Shown one piece after another: positions 13,058 through 20,335 of a stretch of 32,349 nucleotides of DNA. Numbering within the stretch: position 1 is the stretch's first letter; each line of letters starts with the position of its first letter. Source of the stretch: Candidatus Methanoplasma glyptotermitis. Its GTDB lineage: Archaea > Thermoplasmatota > Thermoplasmata > Methanomassiliicoccales > Methanomethylophilaceae. Where the stretch lies: the NCBI GenBank assembly GCA_031267895.1, contig JAIRYF010000042.1, positions 1 through 32,349 on the forward strand, read 5' to 3'. The position numbers and the translations under genes were made by a program. Under the pieces are notes generated by a model. That model did not search any database. It worked only from the letters and a program-made list of their open reading frames with translations, and was not told where the DNA came from.

Positions 13058-15289
13058 TCATTCCGCGTGGCCGTGCCGTCTGAGCCATACAATCAGACAC
13101 ACTGCAAAAATCATAACTGCCAAGACCAGGACAACCCACAAGGCAGTATTGCCGAACTCATCTGTCTTTGACACAGTCAGGGTGATGTCGCCGCTCTCGC
13201 CGTCCGAGAACTCCGCGACAAAGATATGCGTCCCTGCGGCGAGGGTTTTTAGATAGCTTTCTTTCAGCGTGATAACCGTGCTGCCCTCCGAGACGGAGTA
13301 GTCATTACTGTCCACGGCACTCCCGCTGAGAAGCAGGCGGATAAATTCCGTATGGTCGCCGTCAATCTTTGCCGTGGCCGAACCGCTTCCGCTCCAGTCA
13401 TTGAAATGGCTGATAACGGAGTAGGACGGCGTGGCACCTGTCGGCGGGGCGGTGTCGTTAACCGTAATAATCAAAACGGGGTCTGTGCCTCCCGACATGT
13501 CAAAGATAAGTGTGTGCATTCCCGTGGCAAGCGAGGCCAAATAGTCTTTTAGAATCGTGATCGTGTTGACGGAAACACGGTAATCTGTGCCTTTGACGAG
13601 AGCAGACCCGCCTTTTTTGACAGCCGCAAGAGTATAGTCGCCCGGGTTGAGGATGACACTCACATTCCCGCCGCCGTATTTGTCAAAGGACACCGTCGTA
13701 CTTCCCAAACTCGCGTTGTTTGAGATCGAAGGGCCGCCGCTCGTGTCTGCCAGTACGACTCCGATCGGAGAAAGTGTCATCAACTCGAAAGTCACACTGT
13801 TGTTTTCAACGGTGGCTGTGAGCCGTTCAAGCTGACCGTGGTTGCAGTGTAAGATCGTAATCTCTCGCCCATTGAACCCTTCCGGGATCGGTATCGTAAT
13901 CCTGATCGGCCCGCTGTAGCCGCCTCCTGTAATGCTGATGTCATGCAGTGCGAGAAGTGTCTCACTGTCTTCCGCGTCGTGGATCGCATCGCAGGCATCA
14001 TCCGTTCCCGCATCGTGGGCGTAGCCGGGAACATCTTCGAGCGTCGCGTCGGGAGTGATGAGTCCCTCTATTTTGATGCCTGTCTTGATGTCCGCAAGTT
14101 CGCGGTTATCGCGGCCGCCCTCGACCGCGAAGCTGAATGTATCGGCAGGTGTCTCCATTGTATTGCCGGCAATGTCCTTGAAGCCGGAGACAGTCACGTT
14201 GTACAGCCTCCCGGCTGATAGGCCCTCATAGGATGCTGTAAATGATACGCCATCGCCTTCCAGCATGATATTCGTCAGTTCGCTGTGCTCCAGACCGTCT
14301 GCGCGGGAGAGCGTGACTGTTTCCCCGCCGCTCTGCATTTCCTCATCAAACCAGATGGTCACAGTGCCGGCGGCGGGATTGTCGACGCCTATCGGGTTTA
14401 CGTACGTCAAGTGCGGCGGATAAGTGTCGGCAGCCGCGTGGGCGCGGTCACCGATCCATGAGTTAAGGTTTATTTCTATATCTTTGCCGGCAGTCACAAC
14501 GACGGTTTCCGCTTCATTGAGACTTGCAGCATCCGATGTACTGTTATACCATTGGAATATTCCGTCCACATAGTCCTCACTGGTCCAACTGCCTGTACCT
14601 TGGAGAACCGACTTATCGTTATACGAAAACGCGAAGCGGTACGTACCTTCCTCAATGAAGCGAACAGACCAGTTCTCCCATCTGTAGTCTTCCGTCATGG
14701 TGCCGACAACTCCATTTCCCAGCACCCATCCTTCACCTGTGCCCATCCAGCGATACGAGAGCACTGCAAGCTCGGAGTTTGACGCGGGGAGTATCTGCTC
14801 CGCCGGCCAGCAGTCGAACGGTGCGCTTACATTAATCCAACCGCCGCGCTGAAAATAGAGATTCACAGGCTGCCCCGCTATGAAATCCCCGAAAGTGTGC
14901 TCTGGGTTTGAATAGGGGAAAGAATCTCCCGGGCCGCCCCAAAACATCTCCTGATACCCTTGTTCCGGTTCAAAGCGGATTTCTGTTTCGCCCGGTATGC
15001 TGTCGGCCAGGGTCTTGAGCACAAAGAAACTCAGGTTGCCATCGACATCCGTCATATGGCTGTCGAGGTCGTTGCCGTTGCAATAGATGTGTATAATGCA
15101 GTTCGCGGCGGGCTGAAGCGACTCCGTTTCCTGCATGTCCAGACGAAGGTAGGTGAGTACCTTTGCATGGTATTCATAGTAAACATCAGAGTCTCCGGTT
15201 TCTTCTGCGCCGGCCGTAAACGGTACGCTTACGAATAATCCCGCCAAAAGGCAGAGTACGAGAGCAAGGCTGGCCGCTCTTTGTTTCAT
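13058..15289 (-). CDS. Large secreted surface protein with Ig-like and X2-like repeats and C-terminal membrane anchor
   Basis: A 743-residue exported protein of unknown ligand. A Sec signal peptide spans residues 1-27 (MKQRAASLALVLCLLAGLF... to AGA). Residues 30-285 contain a CnaB-like or carbohydrate-associated beta region. Residues 287-390 resemble a Big_5/SbsA Ig-like domain (PPHLTYVNPIGVDNPAAG, ...IWFDEEMQ). Residues 450-512 form another beta unit, and two X2-like modules follow at about 525-612 and 620-706 (pattern YTL/YSV...ITLK..YL..LA.G.H). Residues 715-736 are a transmembrane helix followed by RRHGHAE, giving cell-surface anchoring. The ATG at 15289 is chosen because it starts the signal peptide. 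X2 and Big_5 modules are typical of gut Firmicutes, so this may be acquired and used for adhesion; both points are inference. Confidence 0.8.
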   Translation of the reverse strand: MKQRAASLALVLCLLAGLFVSVPFTAGAEETGDSDVYYEYHAKVLTYLRLDMQETESLQPAANCIIHIYCNGNDLDSHMTDVDGNLSFFVLKTLADSIPGETEIRFEPEQGYQEMFWGGPGDSFPYSNPEHTFGDFIAGQPVNLYFQRGGWINVSAPFDCWPAEQILPASNSELAVLSYRWMGTGEGWVLGNGVVGTMTEDYRWENWSVRFIEEGTYRFAFSYNDKSVLQGTGSWTSEDYVDGIFQWYNSTSDAASLNEAETVVVTAGKDIEINLNSWIGDRAHAAADTYPPHLTYVNPIGVDNPAAGTVTIWFDEEMQSGGETVTLSRADGLEHSELTNIMLEGDGVSFTASYEGLSAGRLYNVTVSGFKDIAGNTMETPADTFSFAVEGGRDNRELADIKTGIKIEGLITPDATLEDVPGYAHDAGTDDACDAIHDAEDSETLLALHDISITGGGYSGPIRITIPIPEGFNGREITILHCNHGQLERLTATVENNSVTFELMTLSPIGVVLADTSGGPSISNNASLGSTTVSFDKYGGGNVSVILNPGDYTLAAVKKGGSALVKGTDYRVSVNTITILKDYLASLATGMHTLIFDMSGGTDPVLIITVNDTAPPTGATPSYSVISHFNDWSGSGSATAKIDGDHTEFIRLLLSGSAVDSNDYSVSEGSTVITLKESYLKTLAAGTHIFVAEFSDGESGDITLTVSKTDEFGNTALWVVLVLAVMIFAVCLIVWLRRHGHAE

Positions 15290-15305
15290 TCTGACTGTTT
15301 TATTT

Positions 15306-15318
15306 CCCCCCCCCCCCC
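15306..15318. repeat. 13-nt poly-C tract (poly-G on the coding strand) upstream of the surface protein
   Basis: Thirteen consecutive C lie 16 bp upstream of the surface-protein start codon, hence a G13 run in its leader or promoter. Homopolymers this long mutate by slippage and often switch surface genes. The remaining ~370 bp up to the next gene (15319-15695) hold nothing recognisable. Confidence 0.6.
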
Positions 15319-15695
15319 TGATGGGCGGGCGGATGTTTTGACGGAAGAAATGATTTCTTCCAGCGGTTTGGGGTTCATAAATCTTCACCTTGTCGTGCCA
15401 CAACATACCCTATTGCGGCTCGTGTATGAATGCATCTGTGTAGTCATATTTATTCAATTCCACACACAGCATGCGGTTTTAACGGGTCGAGTTTTCGTAT
15501 AATCTATGAACCTCCCTTATCCCCCCATTACCGGAGCCGTCTGTCCATGAGCCGCATCAAAAAGAAAATGCAGATCCAAACTGCGACAGTCGGATCCGCG
15601 CTGTGCTTGCGGAGTGAAAATAAATGAGGTAATATGTTTGATTTGCATGGTGTGAGGGAATATCTCTTTCGGATGTAACTCTGCATGCTCTGTTC

Positions 15696-16428: not shown

Positions 16429-18519
16429 TTATTTCAGAGTGCACAGGGCATCGACTGCCCAGCACCCTTCGCCCTTCTTCCCGACTATCACAGGATTGAT
16501 CTCCAACTCGTATATTTCCGGGTTATCCTCGGCAATCGCCACGATCCTTCTGATCATGTCCTTCATTGCATCGATATCGGCGACCGGGAGACCTCTTGCG
16601 CCGGACATCAGTTTATGTGCTTTTGTGGATGTGACCATCTTGTCAAGCTGCTGTTCGCTCATCGGGACATGTGCCTGCGAGATCTCCCCCAGAATCTCCA
16701 CGTATATTCCGCCGAGGCCGAATGACACAACCGGGCCGAACTGCGCGTCCCTTATCATGGAAAGGATCACTTCCTGTCCGAACACCATCTGCTGTATCGA
16801 TACCCCGTCAAGTCTGACATTCGGTTTTGCCGCTTTGCAGCTTGCCATGATCTTATCGAAAGCTGTCCTCGCCTCCTCCGCATTTTTGACACCGACGGCC
16901 ACACCGCCGACATCCGTCTTGTGAGCAATGTCCGGCGACAGTATCTTCATGACCACGGGATACCCCATTCTGCTGCATTCTTTCTCGGCATCGGCCGCCG
17001 TTTTGACGGTAGCTTCGCCGGGAGTCGGCATTCCGTACGCTGCGAATATCGCTTTTCCCTCCGATTCTGTAAGGGCTGTCCTTCCTTCGGATTTTGCGTC
17101 TGCGATAATTTTCCGGGCTGGCGTCTTCCCAGACACCGGCGGTGCCTCCATCGCATCGTGTTTTTCCTGACTCCTGACTGTGTATCCTCTGAGTATCGAA
17201 AGGGCGCGGACCGCTCTGTCAGGTGTCGGGTAGCACGGTATTTTCCCGAGCCTCAGTATCCTGTTGGCCTTCTCGCATTTCTCGCCGCCGGCGAAACAGC
17301 ATACCGTCGGCACAGGTATGTCATCTCTCATCTCGACCATGATTCTGGCTATGCTTTCGAGATCCGCGGTGTCGAGAGGCGAACCCATCACCACAAGGCC
17401 GCCCACGGACGGATCTCTGACAGCAGCATTTATTGCGCCTTTGAAATATTCTGCTTTCGCATCTCCCCTCACATCAATGGGGTTGGTCAGTCCGGCGATG
17501 GTGGGGACCGCTTTCTTTATCGCCTCGATCGTTTCCGGCGCAAGTTTTGCCGCCTCTATGTACGGGGCATTGAATGTCGCATCTGCGGACATTACGCCGA
17601 GTCCTCCTGCATTGGTTATGATTGCAATCCCGTCTTTCTTCATCGGACTGCATGTACTGAAGACAGACAGAGCATCGAACATCTCGTCGAGGTCCTGCGC
17701 TCTGTGCATGTTGAGTTTCCTGAATATTACGTCGTTGACGGCATCGGATCCCGCGAGCGAACCCGTGTGGGATGAGGCTGCTGCCGATCCCGCCGCGGTC
17801 TTTCCCGATTTGAACACTACGATGGGCTTCTTTGTCTTGGCATGTTCCACAGCCTTCACAAGTTTGGCACCGTCCGATATGCCTTCGCAGTACATCCCTA
17901 TGACCTTTGTATCCGGATCTTCTATAAGATCGTCTATAACATCAGCCTCATCGACATCGGATTTGTTTCCGAATGTCATGAAGTTCGCTATGCCGAGTTC
18001 ATTCAGTTTGGACCATTCGAGTATGGAGGATCCGAGTGCTCCGGACTGCGAGAGAATAGATATATTCCCTGCGGGGGGAAGTATGTGCGTGAAGGTGAAG
18101 TTCACCCCGTATTTGACATTCATGTTGCCGAAACAATTGGGACCCACAATCCTTACCCCGTACTTCTTGGCTTCCGACAGAAGTCTCTCTTCCAGCTTTG
18201 CACCCTCCGGTCCTTCTTCCTTGAATCCTGCCGTGAGTATCGATGCATATTTTATGCCGGCGGCACCCAGTTCTTTCATTTCTTCGACTGCCTGCGCATT
18301 CTTTATCGCTATAACTGCAAGTTCTATCGGCTTTCCGACATCCCTGACCGACGGGTAAGCTTTTATACCCTGTATCTCCCCGCCTTTGGGATTTATTGCA
18401 TACAGTCTCCCTTTGTAGCCTGCATTGATCATGTTTTTCAGTAGCATGCCGCCCAGCTTTGCCGTGTCCGCCGATGCGCCTATGACCGCAACGGATTCGG
18501 GCCTGAAATAAGCTTTCAT
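16429..18519 (-). CDS. acd: Acetyl/acyl-CoA synthetase (ADP-forming), fused alpha-beta
   Basis: Converts acyl-CoA, ADP and phosphate to acid, CoA and ATP, an archaeal route for ATP formation from acetyl-CoA or amino-acid-derived acyl-CoAs. The 696-residue protein fuses both subunits: CoA-binding domain (residues 1-130, VAVIGASADTAKLGG, VGPNCFG), succinyl-CoA-ligase-like domain (150-450, SILSQSGALGSS, and the phosphorylated His251 in SSHTGSLAGSD), and a C-terminal ATP-grasp beta domain (about 480-696, YPVVMKILSPDIAHKTDVGGV, LEINPVIV). Length is normal for fused forms. A TATA-like GTTTATCTAAG about 25 bp before the ATG suggests a leaderless mRNA. The AT-rich DNA further upstream carries four copies of a GAAATTCG-type motif, so regulation is likely. 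A strong terminator follows. Confidence 0.93.
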   Translation of the reverse strand: MKAYFRPESVAVIGASADTAKLGGMLLKNMINAGYKGRLYAINPKGGEIQGIKAYPSVRDVGKPIELAVIAIKNAQAVEEMKELGAAGIKYASILTAGFKEEGPEGAKLEERLLSEAKKYGVRIVGPNCFGNMNVKYGVNFTFTHILPPAGNISILSQSGALGSSILEWSKLNELGIANFMTFGNKSDVDEADVIDDLIEDPDTKVIGMYCEGISDGAKLVKAVEHAKTKKPIVVFKSGKTAAGSAAASSHTGSLAGSDAVNDVIFRKLNMHRAQDLDEMFDALSVFSTCSPMKKDGIAIITNAGGLGVMSADATFNAPYIEAAKLAPETIEAIKKAVPTIAGLTNPIDVRGDAKAEYFKGAINAAVRDPSVGGLVVMGSPLDTADLESIARIMVEMRDDIPVPTVCCFAGGEKCEKANRILRLGKIPCYPTPDRAVRALSILRGYTVRSQEKHDAMEAPPVSGKTPARKIIADAKSEGRTALTESEGKAIFAAYGMPTPGEATVKTAADAEKECSRMGYPVVMKILSPDIAHKTDVGGVAVGVKNAEEARTAFDKIMASCKAAKPNVRLDGVSIQQMVFGQEVILSMIRDAQFGPVVSFGLGGIYVEILGEISQAHVPMSEQQLDKMVTSTKAHKLMSGARGLPVADIDAMKDMIRRIVAIAEDNPEIYELEINPVIVGKKGEGCWAVDALCTLK

Positions 18520-18647: not shown

Positions 18648-18753
18648 ACAATAAACTGATATTTTTCACATGTAAGTCGATTCTATACAATAAAATACGC
18701 TGATTGACGTAATCGTGCAAGATATTAATTATCATGCCGTGCATATTGCAGAA

Positions 18754-18980
18754 GCCGAACCGGCGTAAGGGCATGATCGGTGATTGCCACGTGCACGGAG
18801 CGGCTCACAGCGACCCTGTCCCTGCAAAGGGGCTCTTGCGGTAGTGGCGATGTGTCATCGCAGCCGTGACCGGAAGCCAACGCAGGGTCCGACACATACT
18901 CCCGGCGTAAGTCAGTGCCCCGAGACCGGCGTCATCGCCGGACTGTGAAAAGGTGTGTTAACGCCCGGGAGACACGTGCA
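18754..18980. ncRNA. GC-rich, strongly foldable region; possible structured RNA of unknown class
   Basis: Several compensating pairings can be drawn by hand: GACCCTG near 18811 with CAGGGTC near 18882; GCGATG TGT CATCGC (18847-18861); CCGGCG TCAT CGCCGG (18926-18941); and CTCCCGG (18899-18905) with CCGGGAG (18965-18971), extended by CGTAA/TTAACG. No ORF in the stretch resembles a protein. I tested it mentally against SRP RNA, RNase P RNA, tRNA and cobalamin riboswitches and found no convincing match. Strand is undetermined. It fills most of the 619-bp gap between the synthetase and metallopeptidase genes. Confidence 0.4.
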
Positions 18981-19053
18981 TTACTTCTGTTGATTGTGCC
19001 ATCCATTTGTTCTCTGTCTGTATCCAATACCGCCGGGATGTACCCGGCGTAAG
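18760..19053. repeat. Three copies of CCGGCGTAAG spaced exactly 142 bp apart
   Basis: The 10-mer occurs at 18760-18769, 18902-18911 and 19044-19053. The flanking sequences are not tandem copies of each other. Copies one and three each form the 3' arm of a small hairpin (GCCG AAC CGGC; CGCCGGG ATGTA CCCGGCG) with TAAG after it, and copy two pairs with a distal CCGGGAG. Confidence 0.6.
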
Positions 19054-19138
19054 GCGTTTAACCGGATCGTCAGGTTCGGGGCCGTGTGCCTCTGCCGCAT
19101 CCGCCGCCCGTGCTGAAAAACGGCCCGGCGATCTGTGT

Positions 19139-19816
19139 TCACAGATACATGGACAGGCGTTTCAGCCATTCCTCTGCTTCTTCTCTCTTTGAGTATTTTG
19201 CTTCCAGTTTCGAGAACTCTTCTCCGTGTTTCCCGGCTGCAGGATCGAAACCTATGATCAGATGACACAGTTCATGATACAGACAGTAGTCAAGAACAAA
19301 GTCCGGAATCATATCGGTATCCAGTACGCTGGATATCGAAATCACCTTCATGAGCACGGAGCAGTGTCCTATCTTCCTTACGTTGGATTCTCTCGTCCAT
19401 GTCAGGTGGACCGACGGGTCCTTTTCTATCAGTCCCGCCTCCTCCAGCCTGCCGTAGGCCGACTCAAGATCTTTGGCTTCTCCCTTTGCGGACCTTGTGA
19501 GATTTCTGCTCCTTCTGAGATACACCGGCTGTTTGTACTCCGAAAATTCCGGTGCCGTCATCCACCTGCACATCTCCTCCGAATACCCTTCCTCATCCCC
19601 GGTTATCTTCGAAAACAGCGAATTGCACAGCCCCTCTATGACCTCAGGCGGTGCATCCGCCAGATAATCCGACACTTTGAAGTCCGCCCATTTGTAGCTC
19701 CTCTGCCATCTTATCTTGAATTCTTTGAATGCGACAAACTCCGCTTCCACTTTATCAAATCCGTACTCTTTTCCTATCTCCCTGAATTTATTCCTCAGGA
19801 TATCTTCTGTTTCCAT
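19139..19816 (-). CDS. Zinc metallopeptidase-like protein (SprT/YgjP-type HExxH)
   Basis: A 225-residue protein with a C-terminal metallopeptidase signature YHELCHLIIGFDPAAGKHGEEF: the HELCH motif (first His at about residue 181) and a downstream His in GKHGEEF match the HExxH...H zinc site of the SprT/DUF45-like group. The N-terminal half, with FKEFKIRWQRSYKWADFKVSDYL and a basic RRSRNLTRSAKG segment, is archaeal and not otherwise recognised; WTRESNVRKIGHCS precedes the catalytic helix. I use the ATG at 19816 because GGGAG lies 10-14 bp upstream; the ATG at 19855 is possible. Substrate unknown; SprT relatives include proteases acting on DNA-protein crosslinks, but that link is not shown here. 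Confidence 0.75.
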   Translation of the reverse strand: METEDILRNKFREIGKEYGFDKVEAEFVAFKEFKIRWQRSYKWADFKVSDYLADAPPEVIEGLCNSLFSKITGDEEGYSEEMCRWMTAPEFSEYKQPVYLRRSRNLTRSAKGEAKDLESAYGRLEEAGLIEKDPSVHLTWTRESNVRKIGHCSVLMKVISISSVLDTDMIPDFVLDYCLYHELCHLIIGFDPAAGKHGEEFSKLEAKYSKREEAEEWLKRLSMYL

Positions 19817-20335
19817 CTGTTTATTCTCCCAACGATATTCATCGTATGGTGTCAAAGACCCCAGAGGCCTGAATTAAAGACGCTGAAGTACAATTAGCAT
19901 TCGGGCCAACAGACAAGTACGCTAATTAGAGCAACGGAGTCCCATGCAGGAAGACTCCAAAGAGCATAAGATCGCCGGGAAGACACCGGTGGCCGCAGAA
20001 GAGCAGTCCGGCTTTGTACCGGCCGTCGGCCGGATCTTGTCCGAATATCCTGATCTGTTCATACCCGCCGCGAGTCCGGGGGAGACGGCAGCTGATAACC
20101 CGACAAGGTTTGGGATCTCGTGCCGCCGCAGGGGGACGTATGCGGGTGAGTCTGACGCGGGCCTGGGTGCGGCGGCAGGTCTCATCCGGCAGTATGCCTT
20201 GGCCCTGTGCGTCAAAGGAGCGTGCAATGAGAGTTCTTAGAAGAATAATTGTCTCGCGTTTGTACGTTGATCTTCTTCGGATGCCGTATTTTAATCGATT
20301 ATTTATACATCGTGGCCTATCCACTGGCGATCATT
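19817..20335. other. Intergenic region with a GC-rich inverted repeat; no confident gene
   Basis: This divergent 519-bp gap contains TGCCGCCGCA (20121-20130) and TGCGGCGGCA (20168-20177), a perfect 10-bp inverted pair with a 37-bp spacer, and CCGGCCG/CGGCCGG near 20020. A 98-codon plus-strand frame (19944-20240) spans it but has no recognisable homology and would end in TAG, which the called genes in this window avoid. The last 40 bp carry the TATA box (TTTATACA, 20302-20309) of the next gene. Confidence 0.5.

Follow-up and report, generated by a model that had tools for sequence, protein, structure and literature searches.

A non-coding element of 225 nt in the window is very probably the gene of a stand-alone box H/ACA guide sRNA with three hairpins, an orthologue of HgcG (Pab40) with helix 69 and the A-loop of 23S rRNA as its predicted targets. 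The window is the whole stretch of DNA that was analysed, 32,349 nucleotides of contig JAIRYF010000042.1 from Candidatus Methanoplasma glyptotermitis (assembly GCA_031267895.1), and the element occupies positions 18752–18976 of its forward strand (Table 1). The locus is conserved and structured in relatives, is homologous to HgcG and carries pockets complementary to 23S rRNA. We infer that the RNA of the window is transcribed, is assembled into an RNP and directs pseudouridylation.

Table 1. Coordinates of the RNA, its hairpins and motifs and the candidate promoter element in the window.
Feature	Position	Strand	Evidence
TATA-box-like promoter element (putative)	18725–18730	+	A+T-rich, 22–27 nt upstream of the RNA 5′ end
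Whole RNA: three-hairpin box H/ACA guide sRNA, divergent HgcG/Pab40 (very probable)	18752–18976	+	conservation, covariation, HgcG model matches, reciprocal matches
Hairpin D1, with kink-loop-like apex UGA...UGA at 18774–18784	18754–18804	+	helix 1: 5 of 9 pairs covary; helix 2: 4 of 4
ACA box 1	18807–18809	+	near-invariant ACA after D1
Hairpin D2, predicted guide for the 23S A-loop	18812–18890	+	helices 3, 5 and 6 covary; A-loop target rank
Mini-hairpin in the D2 5′ guide arm, window's family only	18821–18831	+	inner pair covaries; no sister-family counterpart
D2 5′ guide GGGC (predicted)	18830–18833	+	pairs with GCCC of 23S H92, E. coli 2557–2560
D2 3′ guide CAAC (predicted)	18878–18881	+	invariant in the family; pairs with GUUG, E. 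coli 2550–2553
ACA box 2, 15 nt after pocket-closing pair 18876	18892–18894	+	both A invariant; middle C or U
Hairpin D3, predicted guide for 23S helix 69	18900–18970	+	helices 7–9 covary; H69 target rank
D3 5′ guide GUCA, GGGUCA in sister families (predicted)	18911–18914	+	invariant; pairs with UGAC(CC), E. coli 1917–1920 onward
D3 3′ guide GUUA (predicted)	18957–18960	+	invariant; pairs with UAAC, E. coli 1911–1914
ACA box 3 at the RNA 3′ end, 15 nt after pocket-closing pair 18956	18972–18974	+	C and second A invariant, first A conserved

Conservation and covariation

A blastn query of 18740–19140 finds the element as a single copy in 47 of 101 relatives, all within the window's own family, and the matches mostly stop near 18976. 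The alignment contains 29 sequences and the structure derived from it has 55 pairs, 31 of which show two-sided changes. Paired cells amount to 98.1%, against 32.9–42.4% in a control count with the partner slid. Two-sided changes are seen in 132 cells, whereas shuffles average 33.5 and slid structures do not exceed 31.

A covariance model from related genomes, which the preliminary description had proposed, was built solely from the window's family. This model (R1) matches 132 of the 147 genomes of the order Methanomassiliicoccales (72 of the 74 good ones, 29 of the 30 genera), almost always at one locus per genome. Among the named records with the core pattern Methanomethylophilaceae and Methanoplasma genomes predominate, and many come from gut, rumen or faeces. 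The element is strongly supported as a real conserved structured RNA. The earlier suggestion of a new structured RNA stands as regards structure, on covariation and on conservation in relatives, but not as regards a place outside the known classes, since the RNA is of the HgcG/Pab40 type. A 28-mer pattern from D2 has no match in the viral contigs searched, and a viral or mobile origin was dropped for this reason.

Support for the structure comes from covariation, not from folding energy. When the full 251 nt region is folded and compared with shuffled sequence, a check that had also been proposed, the advantage is only slight (z −1.0, with 32 of 200 shuffles equally good), barely above shuffled sequence. 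Folded singly, D1, D2 and D3 give z-scores of −1.8, −2.4 and −2.9, with folds near the comparative structure. The long closing stem of the full-region fold is built with non-conserved sequence past 18976.

Hairpin architecture and relationship to HgcG

A conserved ACA or AUA stands directly 3′ of each of the three hairpins of the element (at 18807, 18892 and 18972). The hairpins are built as in H/ACA RNAs, with an internal loop between a lower and an upper stem, and covariation supports this form. In published H/ACA RNAs 14–16 nt separate the pocket from the ACA (PMC4652768). The distance from the pocket-closing pair to the ACA is 15 nt in D2 and D3 and about 18 nt in D1, the one hairpin that falls outside this rule.

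Known H/ACA RNAs have a kink-turn or kink-loop with tandem G·A. Candidate motifs of this kind were read by eye on the alignments, as UGA...UGA in D1 and GAG/UGA in D3; the D2 motif, also read by eye, is GA/UGA in the sister families and UAG/UGA in most of the window's family. The motif lies about 9–10 pairs above the pocket in D2 and D3, again by eye (known range 8–11). Most members of the window's family have a non-canonical D2 kink-turn, with U replacing G at 18842. Within hairpin 2 of this family U18842 tends to occur with C18877 and G18842 with A18877, two positions that are unpaired in the consensus, and their co-change is possibly tertiary or linked to the kink-turn.

The Rfam search suggested in the preliminary description gives a divided answer. 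No family reaches threshold in the window, and HgcG (RF00064, gathering cut-off 77 bits) has no match in the window sequence itself even at E 5, and so stays below its cut-off there. Relatives, at the same locus, do match HgcG: one sister family gives 56.6 bits (E 2.9e-13), and a second gives E 1.5e-7; 56.6 bits is the best HgcG score among the scanned loci of the order, all of which are below 77 bits. The HgcG model matches 71 of 200 genomes of the class, one of them above the cut-off with 78.7 bits, and the five matches inside the order in this class search fall on R1 loci. Conversely, R1 matches all 20 of the 20 HgcG loci tested outside the order (E 1e-17 to 5e-4). The reciprocal model matches at the same loci indicate full-length homology to HgcG, meaning orthology and not formal family membership. 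Because the window's own sequence is unmatched by HgcG, the assignment goes by homology through relatives.

If the RNA instead founded a new stand-alone structured class with no relation to H/ACA guides, this would account for the lack of any Rfam family at threshold in the window, with HgcG absent even at this permissive E-value, and for the two of three hairpins that deviate from the textbook H/ACA form. Against such a class stand the reciprocal matches with HgcG at the same loci, and the ACA boxes, pocket spacing and target complementarity that are kept across families of the order, which leaves it very improbable. Where the preliminary description had found that no known archaeal RNA class fits, the HgcG and reciprocal matches point to a divergent three-hairpin H/ACA sRNA of the HgcG/Pab40 type. 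The RNA of the window is most likely a previously uncalled member of this type, too diverged for Rfam to call. The Methanomassiliicoccales have been without a called HgcG because the order's version scores below the Rfam threshold, a gap that is now filled by one model that detects an HgcG-type RNA in nearly every genome of the order. HgcG-type RNAs are widespread through the Thermoplasmata.

RNase P RNA (RF00373) and archaeal SRP RNA (RF01857) were dropped as candidates, as their genes lie elsewhere in the genome (G000:C47:38162-38452 and G000:C29:2605-2911, respectively). A match to Pyrobac-1 is weak (E 0.16, 21.8 of 40 bits) and covers part of hairpin 3 only.

Genomic context and the repeated 10-mer

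The left neighbour of the RNA (16429–18519, minus strand, gene start 18519) is an ADP-forming acyl-CoA synthetase by its Pfam domains. The right neighbour (19139–19855, minus strand) is weakly SprT-like, below the Pfam cut-off; its product is a conserved 238-aa protein, which usually adjoins the RNA and faces it. The gene order is widely kept in relatives, with both neighbours on the strand opposite to the RNA, the left one divergent and the right one convergent. Across 29 homologous loci the A+T content is 86–96% at each position from −27 to −22, against about 35–65% at most other positions. Judged from its sequence, this peak would correspond to an archaeal TATA box, and the RNA is probably transcribed as its own gene from this conserved element. 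Elsewhere in the window 13058–15406 (minus strand) encodes a 782-aa protein that combines two CBM_X2 stretches with a Big_5 domain and is probably a cell-surface carbohydrate-binding protein.

A cis-regulatory RNA of an adjoining gene (riboswitch, leader or attenuator) might be suspected from the position of the RNA beside the acyl-CoA synthetase gene and from the conservation of that neighbourhood. Both flanking genes, however, lie on the minus strand in an arrangement shared by many relatives, so the RNA is not the leader of either, and a riboswitch or leader was dropped. The RNA also has a candidate TATA box of its own upstream and terminates in ACA with no sense-strand gene after it, and cis-regulation retains hardly any probability. 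The RNA likewise runs away from the synthetase gene, which speaks against the array of protein-binding stem-loops upstream of that gene that had been envisaged earlier. The three stem-loops of the guide RNA presumably bind proteins, by analogy Cbf5, Nop10, L7Ae and Gar1, as guide hairpins and not as a repeat array.

The idea of an array arose from the 10-mer CCGGCGTAAG, which has three exact copies in the window, starting at 18760, 18902 and 19044 (forward strand), and none elsewhere in it; the expected mean is 0.02 and three copies occur in 0 of 100 shuffles. Counting verified these positions and the two successive intervals of 142, and every copy does take part in a stem, each CCGGC being one stem strand. 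The identical spacing of three exact copies is what would favour a functional repeat array at 142-bp spacing. The spacing is not kept across 28 homologous loci, however: it recurs in only one of them (L007), with two copies, and the third copy has no equivalent in any of the 28. This third copy falls outside the conserved element, about 70 nt beyond its end at 18976. The copy equivalent to 18902, in D3, is common across the homologous loci, as it forms the lower stem of that hairpin. The array was dropped for want of conservation among homologous loci, its probability being negligible; the 142 periodicity is without biological support and the exact spacing is a coincidence. Exact repeat spacing should not be taken as function without comparative data. 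Positions 19032–19050 form a perfect small separate hairpin, CGCCGGG-ATGTA-CCCGGCG, with the 19044 10-mer as its 3′ strand, and relatives are without the 10-mer there.

Predicted targets in 23S rRNA

The 16S and 23S rRNAs of nine genomes were used to score every U for pairing with the pockets. In the window's genome (L121 and L136, on C72 and C33 of G000) and in G007 (C1:159793, C1:1070956) the 16S and 23S genes are far apart and unlinked. Pocket complementarity flanking a U-N is present between D2 and the A-loop and between D3 and helix 69; it is strong in the sister families and short (4+4) in the window's family. As the duplexes there are short and some shuffled rRNAs do equally well, the matches are convincing only through conservation and through the sister families.

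D3 can form 4+4 or 4+6 pairs with the helix 69 sequence GUAAC-UA-UGACCC, in which the predicted target U is E. coli U1915. The helix 69 uridine ranks 1–3 of about 1000 rRNA uridines in nine of nine genomes, and the sister-family guide GGGUCA is the full complement of UGACCC. Within any one genome of the window's family the match by itself lacks significance (52 of 100 shuffled rRNAs equal it in the window's genome), and it carries weight because the guides are invariant and the orthologous target is known. On pairing with helix 69, D3 would place U1915 in the active site of Cbf5.

In the sister families the D2 guides ACAACCCC and UGGGU pair with GGGGUUGU-UC-GCCCA of the A-loop and H92. The A-loop is the rank 1 target in four sister-family genomes, with 8–9 + 3–8 pairs and 0 of 100 shuffled rRNAs equal. 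The guides of the window's family, CAAC and GGGC, form 4+4 pairs and leave three target bases unpaired. With a 3-nt-gap model the A-loop takes first or second place among all rRNA uridines of every scanned genome; in this family it has rank 1 in four genomes and rank 2 in one, a match equalled by 3–7 of 100 shuffled rRNAs (4 of 100 for the window's genome). By pairing with the A-loop and H92, D2 would place its predicted target, E. coli U2554 or U2555, in the Cbf5 active site. The GGG predicted to contact the A-loop is also base-paired within the mini-hairpin of the 5′ guide arm. In this mini-hairpin the innermost pair covaries (UG/AU/CG/UA) and the two outer pairs hardly vary, so support for it is moderate.

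In the window's family a stem closes the D1 pocket, and five of its pairs covary on both sides; a flexible scan of rRNA with D1 finds no recurrent site in the window's order. With its internal loop shut in this way, D1 is probably without guide function here. In other Thermoplasmata the hairpin 1 guides GCGAAG and GCAAG form 6+5 pairs with the sequence GCUUGC-UA-CUUCGC at E. coli 2496. These guides are absent from the window's order, and the 2496 site of the rRNA is unchanged in the genomes checked. The site is probably L2588, the target of Pab40.1, since T. kodakarensis has pseudouridines at 2589, 2592 and 2607 (PMC6138745), which correspond to uridines at −3, 0 and +15 here. With its ACA and kink-loop-like apex kept and its guide lost, D1 would probably have a structural role only; one hairpin of a multi-guide RNA has apparently lost its guide yet kept its fold. 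In one sister family (f6; L144, L147, L151, L155 and L159) hairpin 1 keeps a 3′ UUGCA(A/U), which resembles the UGCAAG guide of other Thermoplasmata, and the 5′ guide is gone; this hairpin is a possible intermediate in guide loss.

A tentative reading, close to evenly balanced, is that HgcG has been reduced to two guides in the window's family, which comprises methanogens of guts and termites. On this reading the D1 pocket is a structural stem, and D2 has switched to U2554 or U2555 of the A-loop and conceals its 5′ guide in a mini-hairpin, which would have to open for the target to bind.

It is unlikely that the hairpins of this H/ACA RNA are directed to other sites, either elsewhere in rRNA or in tRNA. 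The shortness of the duplexes in the window's family leaves room for such targets; a site near local 23S position 2369 outscores helix 69 for D3 in three genomes of the family, and in G007 D2 matches local 23S position 291 better. These alternatives do not recur in the sister families, whereas helix 69 and the A-loop do, and the helix 69 target of D3 is also that of Pab40.3 and Af4.3. Guiding to helix 69 and the A-loop gives concrete pseudouridine predictions for these methanogens, in helix 69 and at an A-loop site common to eukaryotes.

Protein components

Cbf5 and Gar1 are present in eight of eight genomes and Nop10 in seven of eight. Nop10 was not found in the window's assembly (97.85% complete), even with a query protein from a congeneric species, perhaps owing to assembly incompleteness. 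If the RNA assembles as known H/ACA RNPs do, Cbf5, Nop10 and Gar1 would bind the lower stem and ACA of each hairpin, and L7Ae its kink-turn or kink-loop. The Cbf5-type enzyme would then convert the guided 23S uridines to pseudouridine.

Comparison with known guide RNAs

HgcG/Pab40 (RF00064), which is Pf7 of Pyrococcus furiosus, likewise has three consecutive H/ACA hairpins in one stand-alone RNA, and its model matches relatives of the window's RNA over its full length (1–276). Hairpin 3 is assigned to one helix 69 uridine in Pab40 and is predicted to guide to the same one here (Pa L2016, E. coli 1915), the nucleotide to which Pab40.3, Af4.3 and Hvo HP2 are assigned (PMC4652768, PMC2584109). 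The two differ in several respects. The Rfam model does not recognise the window sequence, and Pab40.1 targets L2588, whereas hairpin 1 of the window has lost its guide. Pab40.2 is assigned to L1932, and hairpin 2 of the window's type fits the A-loop instead. The D2 guide arm also has an inserted mini-hairpin not seen in Pab40; the internal loop of Pab40.2 is itself unusually large (PMC4652768).

Afu-4 of Archaeoglobus fulgidus and the HP1–HP2 RNA of Haloferax and Haloarcula are also composed of H/ACA hairpins, of which Af4.3 and HP2 are assigned to the helix 69 pseudouridine. Haloferax and Haloarcula HP1, unlike D2, targets E. coli 2586 and not the A-loop.

The eukaryotic guides snR10 (A-loop) and snR191/U19 (helix 69) serve the same rRNA sites as those predicted here, a functional parallel only. 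Yeast Ψ2258 and Ψ2260, in helix 69, correspond to E. coli 1915 and 1917 and are guided by snR191/U19. Yeast snR10 modifies Ψ2923, and Um2921 is equivalent to E. coli 2552 (PMC2584109), therefore Ψ2923 corresponds to E. coli U2554.
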